DNA of 64,000 nt, taken from Adhaeribacter soli. GTDB lineage: Bacteria > Bacteroidota > Bacteroidia > Cytophagales > Hymenobacteraceae. Shown here piece after piece: positions 2,505 to 9,502 of the stretch. The stretch covers positions 248,001-312,000 of the forward strand of contig NZ_VTWT01000002.1 of assembly GCF_008727925.1 (NCBI RefSeq), given 5' to 3'. The notes beneath the pieces were generated by a model, which was given only the letters and a program-made list of their open reading frames with translations, was not told the origin of the DNA and searched no databases. The translations under genes were made by a program, and so were the position numbers. Position 1 is the stretch's first letter, and each line of letters opens with the position of its first letter.

Positions 2505-4019
2505 ATGACAAAGGAAAAAAAACTTACCGACCGCACGCTTGCCGGCTTTCTCTGGACGATAACCGGCAGCGGCATTCAGGTTTCCCTTAAAATTGGGGTG
2601 CTTGCCATTATGGCCCGGTTAATTAGTCCGAAGGAATTCGGGGTGGTAGGTATGGCGGTCATTGCCATTGAGTTTTCCAAAATGTTCACCCAGATGGGCG
2701 TAGGCCCGGCCATTGTGCAGCGGAAAGAACTGGAAGACCGCCACCTGGCAACCGGCTTTACCATGTCCTTACTGATGGGTTTATGCTTTGCCACCACCTT
2801 ATTTTTAGGTGCCCCTATGCTGGCAACTTTCTTTCGCATGGAAGGCCTGCAGGAAGTACTCAGAACCGTTTCCCTGATCTTTCTGATCGATTCCTTCACC
2901 CTCGTGGGCCAGGCCCTTTTGCAACGCGCAATGAAATTTAAGGTAATTGCCGGCATCGATGTCGCTTCTTATGCGATTGGTTACGGGATCGTTGGGATCA
3001 CCTTAGGGTATTTAGGCTACGGAAAATGGGCCTTAGTTACAGCTTTGCTATCCCAATCCTTGCTTCATGCTATCCTGGTAGTAATCATTCAGCCTTACCC
3101 AAAAACGCCAAAACTGGACCGCAATGCTTTTAAGGAACTGCTTCATTTTGGCGGTGGCTTCACCCTGGCCCGTATCGGGAACTACATTGCCCTGCAGGGC
3201 GATAACCTGGTGATCGGCCGCATGCTGGGCGCCGCTGCCCTCGGTATCTACGGCCGCGCTTACCAGTTCATGGTAATGCCTGCCGCCCTGTTTGGTACCG
3301 CGCTGGATCAATCGCTTTTTCCGGCCATGGCCAAAGTGCAGGACGACAAGCAACGATTGGGCAAAGCTTTCCTGACCGGGGTCGGCTTTATTGCCCTGGC
3401 CGGCATTCCGTTAAGCGTGCTCCTGGTCTTTTTAGCGCCGGAAATCGTGCTGGTGCTGCTCGGGCCAAAATGGGTTGGAGTTACCCTGCCGTTTCAGATC
3501 CTGGCCAGCGGCCTGCTTTTCCGGATGAGCTACAAAATGAGCGATACCCTGGTTCGGGCCACCGGTGCCGTTTATAAAAGGGCCTGGCGGCAGCTGATCT
3601 ATGGCGTAATGGTAGTTCTGGGCTCGTATATCGGGCAGTTCTGGGGTCTTTACGGCGTGGCCTGGGGCGTAGCAATTGCGCTGATCGTCAACTTCCTGCT
3701 CATGGCCCAGCTCAGCGTGCAGCTTACCGACGTCCGTTGGTCCGATATTGCCAAAGCCCACTACCATGGACTATTGCTGGGAGCTACTACCGGCATGACA
3801 ACCCTAATTCTGCTTACGCTGTGCCGCGAAAATATAGATTCCGCCCTGGCCGTTTTACTGATAACCGGTATAGGAGCCGGCGCTCAGATTCTGCTTTCTA
3901 CCTATTTCTTCCCCGGCATTTTCATGCGGCCCGATCAGCAGGAATTAGTTCAAAAACTGATCCTGAAACGCTTTAAACCGGCTTCCACCCCTAAAACAAC
4001 CAACCCTACCCATGGATAA
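2505..4019 (+). CDS. Wzx-type polysaccharide flippase (lipopolysaccharide/EPS export protein)
   Basis: A 504-residue polytopic inner-membrane protein of the MOP/RfbX-WzxC family with about 12-14 hydrophobic segments. The N-terminus (TDRTLAGFLWTITGSGIQ) and the conserved SPKEFGVVGMAVI and GRAYQFMVMPA segments match the WzxC/MATE-like polysaccharide exporters. It should move undecaprenyl-diphosphate-linked repeat units across the inner membrane. The stop codon overlaps the next ATG by 8 bp (4012-4019), so translation of the downstream nucleotidyltransferase-like gene is probably coupled to it. Together with the Wzy candidate at 7.5 kb this marks the locus as Wzx/Wzy-dependent. Confidence 0.9.
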   Translation: MTKEKKLTDRTLAGFLWTITGSGIQVSLKIGVLAIMARLISPKEFGVVGMAVIAIEFSKMFTQMGVGPAIVQRKELEDRHLATGFTMSLLMGLCFATTLFLGAPMLATFFRMEGLQEVLRTVSLIFLIDSFTLVGQALLQRAMKFKVIAGIDVASYAIGYGIVGITLGYLGYGKWALVTALLSQSLLHAILVVIIQPYPKTPKLDRNAFKELLHFGGGFTLARIGNYIALQGDNLVIGRMLGAAALGIYGRAYQFMVMPAALFGTALDQSLFPAMAKVQDDKQRLGKAFLTGVGFIALAGIPLSVLLVFLAPEIVLVLLGPKWVGVTLPFQILASGLLFRMSYKMSDTLVRATGAVYKRAWRQLIYGVMVVLGSYIGQFWGLYGVAWGVAIALIVNFLLMAQLSVQLTDVRWSDIAKAHYHGLLLGATTGMTTLILLTLCRENIDSALAVLLITGIGAGAQILLSTYFFPGIFMRPDQQELVQKLILKRFKPASTPKTTNPTHG

Positions 4020-5514
4020 GGAAGTAAACATCCAGGTCCCTGCGCTTTCGCTGGTTGAAAACCTGTTGCTTGCGTTTCACAAACAAGGCATCCGGTATTG
4101 CCACTGGAAAGGGAACGAACACGTGGGCGCCTCCATGATCGGGGACAGCGACTTGGATATACTGTTTGACATAAACCAGAAACCAGCATTGGAGGCTCTC
4201 CTGGCTGATCTGGGTTTTAAGAAATTCAATGTCATTCGCCAGAAACAAATGAAGGATGTGGTGGATTATATCGGCCTGGATACCCCTTCGGGCAGGATCG
4301 TGCACGTGCATTCATATTTCAGGTTAACAGTGGGAAAACTATTTCTGAAATCGTACCAGATAAACCTGGAGGAAAAATTTCTGAATACCCGGATCTACAA
4401 CGAGCAATTTGGCATTTACTGTTCGGAGCCAACTCTGGAACTGCTGCTCTTATGTTTCAGCGAAGCCCTGAGCCTCCGCCACCGCGACGTTGCTAAAATT
4501 TACCTATCCGGCAAAATAAATTATACCGGGAAAACCCAGCGGGAATACACCTGGCTGAAAAAGAGAACCACAGATGCTAAAATCAAGGCTGTTCTCCAGG
4601 AACTGCTCACCGATTTCCGCCCCGTTTATGATTTGGTAACCGGCGAATTCAACCGCTTGCAAATGCGAAAACTGGCGCACCTGCTAAGAAAAGAATTCAG
4701 AAACAACCATTTATATAAACCCGGAATAGCCCTGATGCGCCGCTGGTACCACGAAGCCACGGTAATTCTTGCCCGGAAGTTGGCTCAGCGGTTTCCTTAC
4801 CCGTTTTCTACCCAGCGCATTAACCCCAGGGGAGGCGTTGTTGTTGCGATTAACGGGAAAAACTGCTACGAAAAAACCAGGATCCTGGAAGACCTGAAAC
4901 ACACCTTCCGGCAAAAACTGGATGTGTATACTTTATCCGTACGCCATGGAAAGATAAGACCAGATTGGGAAAAAGAAATCCGCGGCATCATCGGAAAAAT
5001 GGTAGCATCGGCACCAGAAAAACCGCAATACCAAGTCTATAAAAAGAACTTTACGGTGCTGCAAATGACCCAGGTCCAGAGCTTAAAAAAAAACCTGAAG
5101 GCCTGGCTTCTGCACCAAAAAAAGATCCGCAACCTTCGCTACATTTTAAAAGCCAGGCAAAAAGGAATGTTTGTCATTTGTGAGCATTTCCCCCGTACGG
5201 ACAATGCTGAAGCTGCTATTTCCAACAACGGCAGAGACCAGTTAACCAAAGCTGGTTTAAGTATAAAAAAACAACTCTTTGCCTTGGCCCAGCACAATCC
5301 GCCCGATATCCTGATCGAGCTGGTTGACGAACCTTTATTAAAAGAAACCATGCTTCCGGGTGGGAACTCGCATGAGCTGGTAGTGGAAAAGATCTCGGAA
5401 AAAGGGAAAGTAAACAGCCGGAACAATACCAAAACCATCATAATCGACTTAAACCAGCCGCTGGCCAAAACCCTTTCAAAAATTAAGAAGGAGATATGGA
5501 ATGCCTGCCCCTGA
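4012..5514 (+). CDS. Nucleotidyltransferase-like / kinase-like fusion with degenerate P-loop
   Basis: This 500-residue protein is closely similar along its whole length to the 514-residue product of the next gene. The N-terminal half has a minimal nucleotidyltransferase signature (YCHWKGNEHVGAS then GDSDLDILFD, about residues 27-54) like the uncharacterised NTP_transf_5 group. The C-terminal half has a thymidylate-kinase-like layout. At residues 282-289, where the paralogue has a textbook Walker A (GADGSGKS), this copy reads GKNCYEKT, and the paralogue's DRF motif is EHF here. The kinase half is therefore probably inactive while the nucleotidyltransferase DxD is kept. It overlaps wzx by 8 bp. 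A regulatory or scaffolding partner of the intact paralogue is a plausible inference; function is unknown. Confidence 0.75.
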   Translation: MDKEVNIQVPALSLVENLLLAFHKQGIRYCHWKGNEHVGASMIGDSDLDILFDINQKPALEALLADLGFKKFNVIRQKQMKDVVDYIGLDTPSGRIVHVHSYFRLTVGKLFLKSYQINLEEKFLNTRIYNEQFGIYCSEPTLELLLLCFSEALSLRHRDVAKIYLSGKINYTGKTQREYTWLKKRTTDAKIKAVLQELLTDFRPVYDLVTGEFNRLQMRKLAHLLRKEFRNNHLYKPGIALMRRWYHEATVILARKLAQRFPYPFSTQRINPRGGVVVAINGKNCYEKTRILEDLKHTFRQKLDVYTLSVRHGKIRPDWEKEIRGIIGKMVASAPEKPQYQVYKKNFTVLQMTQVQSLKKNLKAWLLHQKKIRNLRYILKARQKGMFVICEHFPRTDNAEAAISNNGRDQLTKAGLSIKKQLFALAQHNPPDILIELVDEPLLKETMLPGGNSHELVVEKISEKGKVNSRNNTKTIIIDLNQPLAKTLSKIKKEIWNACP

Positions 5515-5682
5515 TCCGGATGCCTTACTATTCCGGTAGCTGTCTATGAAATCTGCATCAGCTGGCAGTCATCCTTTAAACTGATAAAGACCTGTCAACA
5601 TTTACCTCTCGACTCCCCGGCAATATTCAACTGGCCATGCGCTGACTTATTAAAGAAAACATCGATCTAAACCGTTACCAAA
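5515..5682. other. 168-bp spacer between the two paralogues
   Basis: Nothing recognisable is coded here. The two flanking genes are homologous, so this is the spacer of an old tandem duplication. I found no terminator hairpin, so the downstream copy is probably read from the same transcript. Confidence 0.4.
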
Positions 5683-7227
5683 ATGCAAGATTTAGCTGCC
5701 AAACCGCTGGATGATACTGTAGCCAAACCGGTTACCAAACTGAACCTGATCGCCGGTCTGCTTGATGTTTTCCATAAGCAGAACATCCTGTATTGTCACT
5801 GGAAAAGCAACGAACATTTAGATGCCTCCATGACCGGAGACACCGATTTGGATGTGTTGTTCGACATAAAGCAGAAAGGCAAACTTCTGCAGCACTTGCA
5901 CACCCTTGGTTTCAAGAAATTCGATTCCATTAAGGAAAAACAATACCACGACATAGAAGACTATATCGGCCTGGACATTCCCTCCGGAAAAGTGGTGCAC
6001 CTGCACGCGCATTTCCGCATGACCATGGGCGAAACCTACCTGAAAGGCTACCAATTGGCCCTGGAAGACAAAATTCTAAAAAGCCGGGTTTACGACGAAA
6101 CGTTTGGCATTTACACTTCCTCCCCCGCCTTCGAACTGATCCTGCTTTACTTCCGCGAAGCCTTAAAATTACGCAACCGCGAAGCCCTGAAAATGAGCCT
6201 ACTGAACCGGGTGAATTATTCCGAAAACGTAATGAAGGAATACCGCTGGCTGAAGGAGCGTGTTACCGATTCCCAGATCGAAACCATTCTGAAAAGCTTG
6301 TTCAATAACTACCGGCCCATATACAACCTGGTAACCGGAAGATTCAACCGGAAAGAGCTACAAAAATTAGCCCTCCTGATAAAAAAGGAATTCAAAAAGT
6401 ACCGCCTGTATTCCCCTGCCGAAGCTACTTTAACCCGCTGGTACCGCGAAGCAACCGTACTTTTTTCCCGTAAGCTGGCCACATTATTAAACCGCCCCAT
6501 CATGTCGCAACGCATTAACCCGCGCGGCGGCCTCACCATTGCGGTGGTAGGCGCCGACGGATCCGGAAAATCTACCGTTACCGCCGATCTGCAAAACACT
6601 TTCCGCACCAAGCTGGATGTGTACCGCGTGTACCTGGGCCGCGGCGACGGCAAAATTTCTTTAGCCCGGAAAGTACTATTGGGCGCCCGAAAAATGGTAG
6701 GTCCTGAGCCGAAAAAAGGAACCGCTAAAAAAGGAAATAGGAATTCCGGAAATAAGCAAAAAGGATTACTGGCCAATGTTTACAAATGCATCGAAGCCAT
6801 GCTGGTAGCCAATGAAAAAAGCCGAAATCTGGAACGCATGCAGCAAGCCAAGCAAAAAGGCATGCTCGTGATCTGTGACCGTTTCCCGCAAAACCAGATC
6901 ATGGGCTACAACGATGGTCCGCTTTTAAACCACCTGGCGAAATCTTCAAATCCGGTTTTCCGGGCCATTTCCGATCTGGAAGCAAAGGTGTATAAAAAGG
7001 CTGAAAATAATCCCCCGGACCTGGTGATAAAACTGATTGCCGAAGCCGAAGTGGTGGAAGCCCGCAAACCCGGCGAAACCAGTCTGGAAATGCTGGAAGC
7101 CAAAATTGCCGGCATCAAGGCCCTGCAGTTTAAAGACAGCTGTCAGGTAATAACCATCGACGCTTCGCAACCCCTGGGAACGGTACTGGCAACGGTAAAA
7201 AAAGCCATCTGGAATAACTACCGCTAA
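5683..7227 (+). CDS. Nucleotidyltransferase-like / thymidylate-kinase-like fusion, intact P-loop
   Basis: This 514-residue protein is the tandem paralogue of the preceding gene. The N-terminal domain carries YCHWKSNEHLDAS and GDTDLDVLFD (about residues 33-60), a pol-beta-like nucleotidyltransferase signature. The C-terminal domain carries a perfect Walker A (GADGSGKST from residue 290), a YLGRGDGK segment, and CDRFP later, all expected of the thymidylate kinase fold. Proteins of this kind occur in polysaccharide clusters, but I know of no assigned substrate; phosphorylation or nucleotidyl transfer onto a sugar or lipid precursor is only an inference. A basic linker (KKGTAKKGNRNSGNKQKG) interrupts the kinase domain at the place where the degenerate copy is shorter. 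Confidence 0.78.
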   Translation: MQDLAAKPLDDTVAKPVTKLNLIAGLLDVFHKQNILYCHWKSNEHLDASMTGDTDLDVLFDIKQKGKLLQHLHTLGFKKFDSIKEKQYHDIEDYIGLDIPSGKVVHLHAHFRMTMGETYLKGYQLALEDKILKSRVYDETFGIYTSSPAFELILLYFREALKLRNREALKMSLLNRVNYSENVMKEYRWLKERVTDSQIETILKSLFNNYRPIYNLVTGRFNRKELQKLALLIKKEFKKYRLYSPAEATLTRWYREATVLFSRKLATLLNRPIMSQRINPRGGLTIAVVGADGSGKSTVTADLQNTFRTKLDVYRVYLGRGDGKISLARKVLLGARKMVGPEPKKGTAKKGNRNSGNKQKGLLANVYKCIEAMLVANEKSRNLERMQQAKQKGMLVICDRFPQNQIMGYNDGPLLNHLAKSSNPVFRAISDLEAKVYKKAENNPPDLVIKLIAEAEVVEARKPGETSLEMLEAKIAGIKALQFKDSCQVITIDASQPLGTVLATVKKAIWNNYR

Positions 7228-7301
7228 TCTGGTTTAATCATTGGCCTTCCAGCCTTTTGAAGTTCCACTTTGGAAGCAGGGCCGCTTCATGCTCACGTTC
7301 G

Positions 7302-7399
7302 CTGGTTCAAGTTTGAGCGAAGCGGGAACTTGGACCTACAAATATTCTGAAGTTTGTAAATCAGTGAGGCGACAGCCTCAAAAGGGCTGTTTCTACAAT
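7302..7399. repeat. Dispersed intergenic repeat, copy A
   Basis: About 98 bp matching 9736-9835 with scattered differences. Shared blocks include GGTTCA.GTTTGAGCG, AAGCGGGAAC.TGGACCTAC and a TGAGGC/GCCTCA hairpin (7365-7380). It sits in the 306-bp gap before the Wzy gene. The rest of that gap (7400-7533) holds a C-rich/G-rich inverted stretch (around 7421-7485) resembling a decayed form of the CCCCTCCTT-type repeats seen near 40.9 kb, and no gene. Confidence 0.75.
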
Positions 7400-7533
7400 G
7401 ACGAACAGGTAAATGCCCCCTCTAGCTCTCCTGAAGGGGAGAATTTATCAGAATTAAATCCCCCCTTCAAACGGGGACTTTCCTCCTGCTTGTGAAATGT
7501 CAGTTAATCACGCTCTAACCTTTCAGCTGGCTT

Positions 7534-8766
7534 ATGAATCAATCTAAAATTACGGTATACCGCACGGCACTTGCACTGTTCATCGTGGCCAACGTGCTGG
7601 AGTTATTTATACCCCGCATGGACGAAGGAAATTACTTTGTCCGGATGCCGATTCAGCTCATAAACGGTGGCCTGTTGGTGCTCATGTGGGCCACGCTGCT
7701 AAACAACCGCAACCATTGGACCCCGGTTACCAAAATTACGCTGGTCGTTATCCTGATGATACTTGTGTACACGGCCGGTTACCTGATGAACAACCAGATG
7801 GAAGTGAGCGCTTACGCCGCGTACATCCGGTTCCTGCTCTGGACCACCTCGCTCATTTTCTTTTATGAAATGATGCTGAAGTACGGCATAGACAACAAAC
7901 TGATGTGCATTTACATCCTTACGTTTGTGGCCGGCGTAGCCAAAAAACTCTTCGAAACGCCGGTAACGGAACTGGACAACCTAGGCGCGGGAGACACAGC
8001 CGCCTTGCCCCTGCTTTTCATTACCCCTATTATTCTGGTTTGCTTCAGCGACAAAACCAAGATGCTCATCTTATCGGTAGTAGCGGTACTGATCCTTATT
8101 TCGCTCCGCCGCACGGTAATTTTGGGTTTTGCCATCAGCTTTCCTTTCATCTACAAATACATCAGCGCCAAGCTTAAAACGCACCACCTGGTTTTACTCA
8201 GTTTTGCGTTTATGCTCGCCATTTATTTTGCCTGGGGTTATATAGGCGAAGCGCTGATTTTCCGGTTTGAAAACCTGCTGGTAGGCGACGGCGGCGGGGC
8301 CAAAGATTCCTACGGTTCCGGCCGGAGCGAATTCTACATGATCGTGCTCAACGGCTGGTTCAACTCCGACCTTCCGGCTATGATCTACGGCCACGGCCTG
8401 ATCGATATTGCCGAACTGCTTTCCCGGACCTACGGCATTACCCACGCTCATAACGACATTCTGGAAATAGGCTACACCTTCGGCTTTATCGGCATTGGCG
8501 TTTGGTTTACCTTTCTGGGCCGCCTTTGGGGGCTCCGGAACGAAATGCGCCGCTACGTTCCCGAAAATACGAACCTGTTCTACGTCGCTTTTATTTCTTA
8601 CCTGATCATTGGTCTGGCTTCCGGCTGCATTTTGCGCATTACTACCATGCCCCTGGCATTTTCCATCGCCATTCTGGTATACCAGGTGCAAACGGCCAAG
8701 TATGCAAAAGCTGTGCAGCCGGAAACCGATGCTCAAATTAAATCTGAAGATTATGTTCCGGTTTAA
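7534..8766 (+). CDS. Wzy-type O-antigen/EPS polymerase (O-antigen ligase family)
   Basis: A 410-residue inner-membrane protein with about 10-12 hydrophobic helices and one large central periplasmic loop (about residues 240-300, containing GDGGGAKDSYGSGRSEFY), followed by THAHNDILEIGYTFGFIG. The loop plus the H.HNxxLE motif is typical of the Wzy/WaaL superfamily, which polymerises undecaprenyl-linked repeat units or ligates glycans. Location beside a Wzx flippase argues for polymerase rather than ligase. Its stop overlaps the start region of the next gene by 14 bp. Sequence divergence in this family is high, so substrate cannot be inferred. Confidence 0.82.
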   Translation: MNQSKITVYRTALALFIVANVLELFIPRMDEGNYFVRMPIQLINGGLLVLMWATLLNNRNHWTPVTKITLVVILMILVYTAGYLMNNQMEVSAYAAYIRFLLWTTSLIFFYEMMLKYGIDNKLMCIYILTFVAGVAKKLFETPVTELDNLGAGDTAALPLLFITPIILVCFSDKTKMLILSVVAVLILISLRRTVILGFAISFPFIYKYISAKLKTHHLVLLSFAFMLAIYFAWGYIGEALIFRFENLLVGDGGGAKDSYGSGRSEFYMIVLNGWFNSDLPAMIYGHGLIDIAELLSRTYGITHAHNDILEIGYTFGFIGIGVWFTFLGRLWGLRNEMRRYVPENTNLFYVAFISYLIIGLASGCILRITTMPLAFSIAILVYQVQTAKYAKAVQPETDAQIKSEDYVPV

Positions 8767-9502
8767 AACAAAAGAAACTGACACCAGGGCCCGCAAGGAT
8801 GATATTTTCCACCATGCCGGCGCCATTGTAGTAGAATGTGTCGGCCCACCGGGTTCCGGCAAAACTACCAACTGCAAATCTTTCTCCGGCCTGCTAAAAA
8901 AGAAAAACCTGAACGTATGCTTGTCCGATGATCTGAAAGCCTATATCCGGAAAATGAGCAAAGCCAGGAAACTGCTTTTACTTGCCGAAACCTTAGTTTT
9001 AAGAGGTCATTTACTACTGTTTTACACGGCGGCGCTGGCCTTTAATAAGATCTACAGCTTCGATTCCATTTACCGCTACTTGCGGCTTTCCATTTTCAAC
9101 CAGGCGCTCCAAAAGTTTATAAAAAACAAAGAAGTCGATATTGTATTACTGGATCAGTGGATCATTCAGGAGCTGTGGTCGGCTACCATATTTAAGCTAC
9201 CAACTTACACCAAAGTTAAAGACCATCTGAAGCCCTTTTATTTCAAAACCGACTTTGTGCTGTACTTCGATATAGCTGCCGAAACGGCTTCCGAAAGGAT
9301 CAGCAACCGCGCTACCCGGCTCAGCCGCTTCGATCTGATGGGACCCGATAAAAGACTGGAAGAATTACTGAAATACAACGGCTACCTTTTTGAGCTTTAC
9401 CAGAATTCAGGCTGCAAGCAAAAGCACCTGTTTACCACCGACCAGATCCCGGATCAGAACGCCGAAAAGTTCTTTCAGCACCTGAAGAAGTTCACCAAAT
9501 AA
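8753..9502 (+). CDS. P-loop nucleoside/sugar kinase-like protein
   Basis: A 249-residue protein with a Walker A motif GPPGSGKTT about 29 residues from the chosen start and VDIVLLDQWIIQELW as the likely Walker B/DQW segment, resembling the thymidylate kinase/adenylate kinase superfamily. The start at 8753 (MFRFKTKET) overlaps the end of the Wzy gene; ATG at 8729 is an alternative. It is the third kinase-fold protein in this polysaccharide locus, but it lacks the nucleotidyltransferase domain of the two earlier ones. The substrate is unknown; modification of a sugar or lipid carrier is an inference from context only. Confidence 0.72.
   Translation: MFRFKTKETDTRARKDDIFHHAGAIVVECVGPPGSGKTTNCKSFSGLLKKKNLNVCLSDDLKAYIRKMSKARKLLLLAETLVLRGHLLLFYTAALAFNKIYSFDSIYRYLRLSIFNQALQKFIKNKEVDIVLLDQWIIQELWSATIFKLPTYTKVKDHLKPFYFKTDFVLYFDIAAETASERISNRATRLSRFDLMGPDKRLEELLKYNGYLFELYQNSGCKQKHLFTTDQIPDQNAEKFFQHLKKFTK

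Follow-up and report, generated by a model that had tools for sequence, protein, structure and literature searches.

Probable retention of the nucleotidyltransferase half in a kinase-dead copy of a tandem nucleotidyltransferase-kinase gene pair from Adhaeribacter soli

The stretch of DNA analysed in this study (the window; 64,000 nucleotides of Adhaeribacter soli contig NZ_VTWT01000002.1, positions 248,001 to 312,000) contains two tandem genes that each encode a nucleotidyltransferase (NTase) fused to a kinase, a fusion given the short name NTK here. As judged from sequences and predicted structures, the first gene (copy 1) was probably kept as an NTase-only enzyme after its kinase was lost. 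The computed support consists of the motif losses of copy 1, the unequal constraint on its two halves, its open frame, the kinase fold predicted for it, and the loss of one or the other domain in relatives. Doubt arises chiefly because copy 1 has been found in a single genome and because its NTase half is somewhat relaxed. The two copies have the following features:

4012..5514, + strand: copy 1, an NTK of 500 amino acids with the NTase core kept and the kinase half dead
4141..4170, + strand: NTase motif of copy 1, GDSDLDILFD, kept
4855..4878, + strand: destroyed Walker A of copy 1, GKNCYEKT
5179..5190, + strand: CEHF of copy 1, replacing CDRF
5683..7227, + strand: copy 2, an NTK of 514 amino acids with both motif sets
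5836..5865, + strand: NTase motif of copy 2, GDTDLDVLFD
6550..6573, + strand: Walker A of copy 2, GADGSGKS
6874..6885, + strand: CDRF of copy 2 (DR motif)

The two proteins shared 43% identity and 64% positives over 507 aligned columns, nearly end to end, and the search of the window's own genome returned these two copies as the only members. An earlier note on this DNA had claimed that the proteins align throughout with GDxDLDxLFD in both, and that GADGSGKS and DRF are replaced by GKNCYEKT and EHF in copy 1; both claims were borne out in these open reading frames (ORFs). Copy 2 thus carries a Walker A of the form GxxGxGK[ST] together with a DR motif, and copy 1 has neither. Moreover, two losses beyond those listed in that note were found in copy 1, namely GRGDG to RHGKI and RKPGE to MLPGG, which brings the replaced kinase-half motifs to four. 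Among the positions that are invariant in ten other sequences, copy 1 keeps 59 of 75 in the N half and 34 of 66 in the C half; when each other sequence was left out in turn and put to the same test, the lowest values were 75 of 82 (N) and 66 of 76 (C). Of the columns conserved family-wide (at least 90%), 20 of 24 are kept in the N half of copy 1, including K41, G52, D55, D57, D98, H106 and H108, and 10 of 19 in its C half. The earlier proposal that only one half of the chemistry is lost therefore stands for the catalytic motifs and does not extend to the whole NTase half, which is altered too.

Sequence and structural models identify the N half as a nucleotidyltransferase of Pol-beta type. PF14907 (NTP_transf_5) was matched weakly by four of seven close members (best E 0.0014), and the scores of 16 to 20 bits in L052, L059 and L134 lie under the gathering cut-off of 31.2. 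In Foldseek, the model of copy 1 matched ANT(2'')-Ia (E 4.7e-4) and LnuA (E 5.8e-4), and it aligned with MenT1 at Z 11.1 (root-mean-square deviation (rmsd) 4.0, 170 aligned). The Pol-beta-type fold is accompanied by a DxD metal site, D55 and D57 being present in both copies. As for the kinase half, the AlphaFold model of copy 2 (mean predicted local distance difference test score (pLDDT) 92.4) matched dTMP kinase at Z 16.5 (rmsd 3.1, 180 aligned), and that of copy 1 (mean pLDDT 84.2), in which some loops are of low confidence, did so at Z 12.4 (rmsd 5.8, 166 aligned). Copy 1 is predicted to retain the dTMP kinase fold, with lower confidence than copy 2. These predictions were built on 70 and 42 rows picked from the sequence table described below. 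Against Pfam PF02223, copy 2 scored 21, under the curated gathering score of 27; copy 1 matched no Pfam family at E<=0.1, and the PDB sequence search gave three matches, none under E 0.2. Several class-B proteins contain a second P-loop-like pattern, which inspection by eye put down to chance.

Selection on copy 1 was estimated with codon models fitted by an in-house program (not a standard package). In a joint model with one synonymous distance (dS) per branch, the ratio of nonsynonymous to synonymous rates (dN/dS, omega) of copy 1 was 0.16-0.17 in the N half and 0.40-0.43 in the C half, with a background of 0.067-0.068. Equal relaxation of the two halves was rejected under two placements of copy 1 (twice the log-likelihood difference (2dlnL) 34.4-34.5), as was neutrality of the N half (2dlnL 14.0-15.8). 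The comparison of dN/dS between halves that the earlier note had proposed thus revealed unequal constraint in the joint fit, with the NTase half the tighter. Protein branch lengths agreed: that of copy 1 was 0.56 in the N half, just over the range of 0.07-0.54 in ten other Bacteroidota sequences, and 2.49 in the C half, compared with 0.07-0.56. Furthermore, the frame is open over 500 codons and carries no frameshift, at an estimated dS on the copy 1 branch of about 1.4-1.5. When the copy 2 gene was evolved neutrally in simulation to 0.3 substitutions per site, the N half remained stop-free in 0 of 300 runs and the C half in 0.3%. The claim of selection for a kinase-dead copy is supported by the stop-free frame at this branch dS and by the strongly unequal relaxation. 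Among the signs that had been named as marks of a random pseudogene, frameshifts were absent, and relaxation relative to the background was found in both halves, mildly in the NTase half. Neutral evolution of both halves was not found, its rejection being weaker in separate fits, and at the sequence level copy 1 does not look like a decaying pseudogene. In the trees, copy 1 lies inside a Bacteroidota clade of 11 sequences (support 0.997-1.0).

Comparisons with relatives were made in a table of 105 rows, comprising the window pair, five f1 relatives, open frames from the best 80 of 198 relatives found by a scan of named genomes, and 18 frames from a Gemmatimonadota search; L035 and L036 (duplicates of L004 and L005), L090 (broken frame) and L138 (unrelated) were left out. 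Both sites are kept in 97 rows, the kinase site alone is lost in three, and the NTase site alone in three; the remaining rows are L135, which fails both site tests, and the truncated L143. L135 (1372-2919, genome G902) is unusual at both sites (GRGEVALLVD, GGAGAGKSK, EQYP), and no second copy is listed for G902.

Split copies were found in two Gemmatimonadota loci, L083 and L110, in which the genes, named by eye, are flippase, polymerase, NTK copy 1, PIG-L-like protein, glycosyltransferase, NTK copy 2 and small kinase. The first copies keep DLD, but have GEDENERAT or GDDDNKRAT at the P-loop and fill 81 or 77 of 234 C-half columns. The second copies have GSDGSGKST and DRYP, with GLD instead of DLD and CRWQG instead of CHWKS. 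Family columns follow the same division, the first copies keeping 20 of 24 (N) and 6-7 of 19 (C), and the second copies 11-13 of 24 and 19 of 19. Between the two loci, orthologue omegas were 0.27 (N) and 0.34 (C) for copy 1 and 0.58 (N) and 0.22 (C) for copy 2, with 2dlnL against omega 1 of 29.3, 11.1, 4.5 and 36.4, respectively. Both copies are under purifying selection, the dead kinase half included (0.34), and the highest omega is that of the dead NTase half of copy 2. On a fixed tree, the Gemmatimonadota branches were 0.72 (N) and 2.05 (C) for copy 1 and 0.80 (N) and 0.67 (C) for copy 2. A third case is G1157, in which the NTase-dead L144 lies about 7 kb from L126, a copy with both motif sets. 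For all six half-dead copies of the table, the same cluster holds a copy with the missing half, which is what a division of labour between duplicates predicts. Of the two-copy clusters, four of six contain half-dead copies, whereas a site is atypical in one of the 94 remaining rows (Fisher 1.9e-5, or 2.5e-4 with L083 and L110 counted once). A single origin of the kinase-dead copies of the window and the Gemmatimonadota was considered and rejected, the first copies of L083 and L110 grouping with the second copies of the same locus (0.89-0.91); the topology of the copy groupings was unchanged in unfinished trees.

An NTK match was present in 19 of the 204 genomes of the window's family. Six of these have the close type (about 510 amino acids), with two copies in the window genome and one in each of five others, and in the remaining thirteen the type is distant, with identities of 22-35% over the part that matched. 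The search for a like active/inactive pair that the earlier note had suggested was fruitless among the 203 other family genomes, where no second class-A copy was found and the matching frames L004-L021 carry the P-loop motif; it did yield the complementary pair in Gemmatimonadota. The best 80 of 198 relatives came from Bacteroidota, cyanobacteria, Chloroflexota, Gemmatimonadota, Bacillota, Pseudomonadota, Planctomycetota, Actinomycetota and archaea, and the gene is sporadic inside the sampled groups (1-8 genomes of about 200). Profile searches matched 8 of 390 genomes in the order and 2 of 395 in the phylum, where absence is weak because three candidates were scored per genome, and 19 of 345 in the Gemmatimonadota class, a sample of a larger group in which up to five were scored. 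No match was found in phages, and the contig scan with copy 1 alone as query gave no confirmed relative. No further split pair was found in the order around a Lachnospiraceae genome (match in 1 of 196, the centre itself) or in a cyanobacterial order (2 of 195). One two-copy cluster, with both copies intact by eye, turned up in the class centred on an Anaerolineales genome (match in 8 of 229).

The two NTK genes of the window are flanked by genes of a polysaccharide cluster, as follows:

2505..4019, + strand: polysaccharide flippase gene (ORF; the homologous frame fused to NTK in L006 matches Pfam Polysacc_synt_3, E 7.6e-82)
7534..8766, + strand: membrane protein, probably of O-antigen polymerase/ligase type (ORF, named by eye)
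8753..9502, + strand: small P-loop kinase (GPPGSGKT; start codon inferred by eye, the ORF being listed as 8609-9502 from TTG)

The flippase gene ends, stop codon included, 8 bases into copy 1, and copy 2 begins 168 bases beyond copy 1. A single NTK directly follows the flippase in A. terrigena, Botryobacter, G135 and two Segetibacter records, and the two are fused in G138 and G142; copy 1 therefore occupies the usual place of the NTK. Within 3900-7600, the counts of promoter-like and terminator-like sites did not stand out from those in shuffled sequence (3 vs 3.7 and 7 vs 5.8, respectively). The intergenic stretch 7227-7534 contains C-rich and G-rich runs that resemble a repeat element.

The neighbourhood was counted in the best 80 loci. 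Within the sequence available at each locus, small P-loop proteins of the 8753-9502 type were detected in 76 of 80, and in 46 of the 46 loci whose flanks each exceed 6 kb, by a profile grown by iteration that may include some other P-loop proteins; the window protein itself scores 163 bits (E 1.4e-51) against this profile, which was grown from it. It adjoins the NTK in 58 of 80 loci, 54 of them with the motif G..[GA].GK[ST]. A profile grown from the window flippase, which distant flippases may escape, detected a flippase in 44 of 80. Natural fusions were also observed. Flippase and NTK share one continuous open frame of 1029 codons in L006 (1492-4506, G142) and are likewise fused in L007 (G138), Pfam having been run on L006 only. 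Small P-loop kinase, NTase and kinase half are in one frame in L132 (904-3309, - strand) by Pfam and in L144 (496-2964) by eye, the NTase site being lost in the latter. The apparent long fusions L049, L052, L059, L063, L126 and L134 were dropped, with no further in-frame domain at Pfam E<=0.01. Elsewhere, the annotated Chelatococcus XrtA cluster has the order tyrosine kinase, NTK, AAA ATPase and flippase, and kinases like the NTK kinase half occur near LptF/LptG-type permeases.

Several results count against the retention of copy 1 as an NTase. Copy 1 was not found in the congener G009 (Adhaeribacter terrigena BT258) or in the other 202 family genomes, so that its persistence is judged from a single sequence. 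The tree does not settle the sister of copy 1, and tandem duplication is therefore the simplest reading only. In the NTase half, S42, H110, R158 and K162 are replaced, 16 of 75 invariants are changed, and omega is about 2.4 times the background. Neutrality of the C half was weakly rejected in the joint fit (2dlnL 4.2-5.3). When the halves were fitted separately, omega of copy 1 was 0.28-0.29 (N) and 0.24-0.31 (C), with dS of 0.9 and 2.0-2.6, which differ widely because dS saturates; in these fits, the C-half omega was indistinguishable from the background (2dlnL about 2) and not clearly different from 1 (2dlnL 2.3-4.1), and the rejection of N-half neutrality was weaker (2dlnL 5.6-5.7). In the Fisher comparison of half-dead copies, the groups were drawn after the data had been seen, the rows are related, and some genomes among the 94 have a further copy elsewhere (e.g. 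G1044, G1210, G948), most rows having been judged at the locus and not genome-wide. Duplicates also need not split, both copies looking intact in L053 and in G1610 (L160, L164; treated apart from the 105 rows and entering the Fisher count only).

These results bear most directly on the alternative that copy 1 is a pseudogene in the making, which, being redundant with copy 2, lost its kinase half first by chance and will lose the rest. Occurrence in one genome of 204, relaxation of both halves, the lost N-half invariants and the weakly rejected neutrality of the C half would all fit such decay. However, 500 codons have stayed open at the estimated branch dS, neutrality of the N half is rejected, the catalytic NTase residues are kept, and a like split is under purifying selection in Gemmatimonadota, which makes this alternative unlikely. 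It is less probable still that copy 1 is a pseudo-enzyme in both halves, with a structural or regulatory role in tethering copy 2 to the flippase. The overlap of the copy 1 and flippase genes, the flippase fusions in G138 and G142 and the replacement of H110, R158 and K162 would agree with this alternative. On the other hand, copy 1 and the two kinase-dead copies of Gemmatimonadota retain K41, G52, D55, D57, D98, H106 and H108. Moreover, among the rows with both motif sets, 12, 9, 2 and 16 depart from the consensus at positions 42, 110, 158 and 162, respectively, and the changes of copy 1 there are therefore tolerated. Loss of R158 and K162 was also considered as a marker of kinase-dead copies and was rejected, since copy 1 of L110 keeps R158 and members with both motif sets vary there too. 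A new function of the kinase half, whose changed loop would bind another ligand under its own selection, is very improbable: the C-half omega of 0.40-0.43, the weak rejection of neutrality and the persisting predicted fold would suit it, but the change is spread across the whole half (34 of 66 invariants kept), the model has loops of low confidence, and no other row of the 105 has the same new motif.

In the preferred reading, retention of copy 1 as an NTase, a bifunctional NTase-kinase gene would have been duplicated, and copy 1, in the flippase-coupled position, would have lost its kinase activity and been retained for a presumed NTase activity, with its kinase domain now acting as a scaffold. 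Copy 2, perhaps with the small P-loop kinase, would supply the phosphorylation, and the two copies may work together. Copy 1 is a plausible partner of the active copy 2; the split in the window is one-sided, because copy 2 keeps both sites. The neighbouring flippase, yghQ and LptF/LptG genes suggest that the chemistry is tied to lipid-linked glycans. In a tentative pathway, which seems the most likely one although its probability is below one half, a lipid-linked glycan or a precursor of it would be phosphorylated by the small kinase and the NTK kinase and would receive a nucleotidyl or phospho group from the NTase at the cytoplasmic face before flipping. A broader and more doubtful possibility is that the two sites need not share one chain and that duplicates may become obligate partners, each giving one site, separately in Bacteroidota and Gemmatimonadota. 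The setting would be a widespread and so far unrecognised module for glycan modification, made up of a flippase, an NTase-kinase and a small P-loop kinase.

The gene pair of NTK and small P-loop kinase occurs in many bacterial phyla and in archaeal records, and relatives of the kinase half are found in E. coli K-12. From the half-dead copies found in nature, residues can be assigned to one reaction or the other, and the two reactions seem to be separable, so that each half can be assayed alone. Furthermore, the fusions with flippase and with small kinase provide a direct, testable link to lipid-linked glycan export. Together, the findings point to an unstudied pathway whose two reactions can sit on separate proteins. 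No functional study of the NTase-kinase fusion was found in the literature searched, most papers being covered by listing and two by passages.

Compared with known systems, the kinase half of copy 2 resembles the dTMP kinase family (PF02223) in fold, P-loop and DR motif, whereas copy 2 differs from it in being fused to an NTase, in lying in polysaccharide clusters and in a Pfam score under the cut-off. In a tblastn search, copy 2 matched E. coli YghT through its kinase half (34.6% identity over 46% of the query), with three places matched in the YghT record. Unlike the NTK, however, YghR, YghS and YghT (putative ATP-binding proteins) are stand-alone kinases without a fused NTase, all three with a P-loop. 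Their genes adjoin yghQ in E. coli K-12, and the full-length form of YghQ is a Pfam Polysacc_synt protein. The yghQ to yghT stretch of E. coli MG1655 (L145, 9342-12824) thus holds three uncharacterised paralogous kinases related to the NTK C half, and yghQ of MG1655 is shorter than its counterpart on the PN43 plasmid and is annotated directly beside an IS5 element. The genes yghR, yghS and yghT appear as rows in a mutant screen table (PMC9278758), and a passage of another paper gives a doubled minimum inhibitory concentration of chlorhexidine upon yghQ deletion (PMC8170033). The NTase half shares the DxD core, weak family matches and matches of the copy 1 model with PF14907 and the ANT(2'')-Ia/LnuA-type nucleotidyltransferases, and differs from them in its fusion to a kinase and in scores under the Pfam cut-off. 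As a general concept, the duplicates of a bifunctional enzyme may divide the labour between them, some of their halves becoming pseudo-enzymes. The present case resembles it in that duplicate copies lose complementary active sites, and differs in that it concerns an uncharacterised bacterial glycan-cluster enzyme in two phyla.

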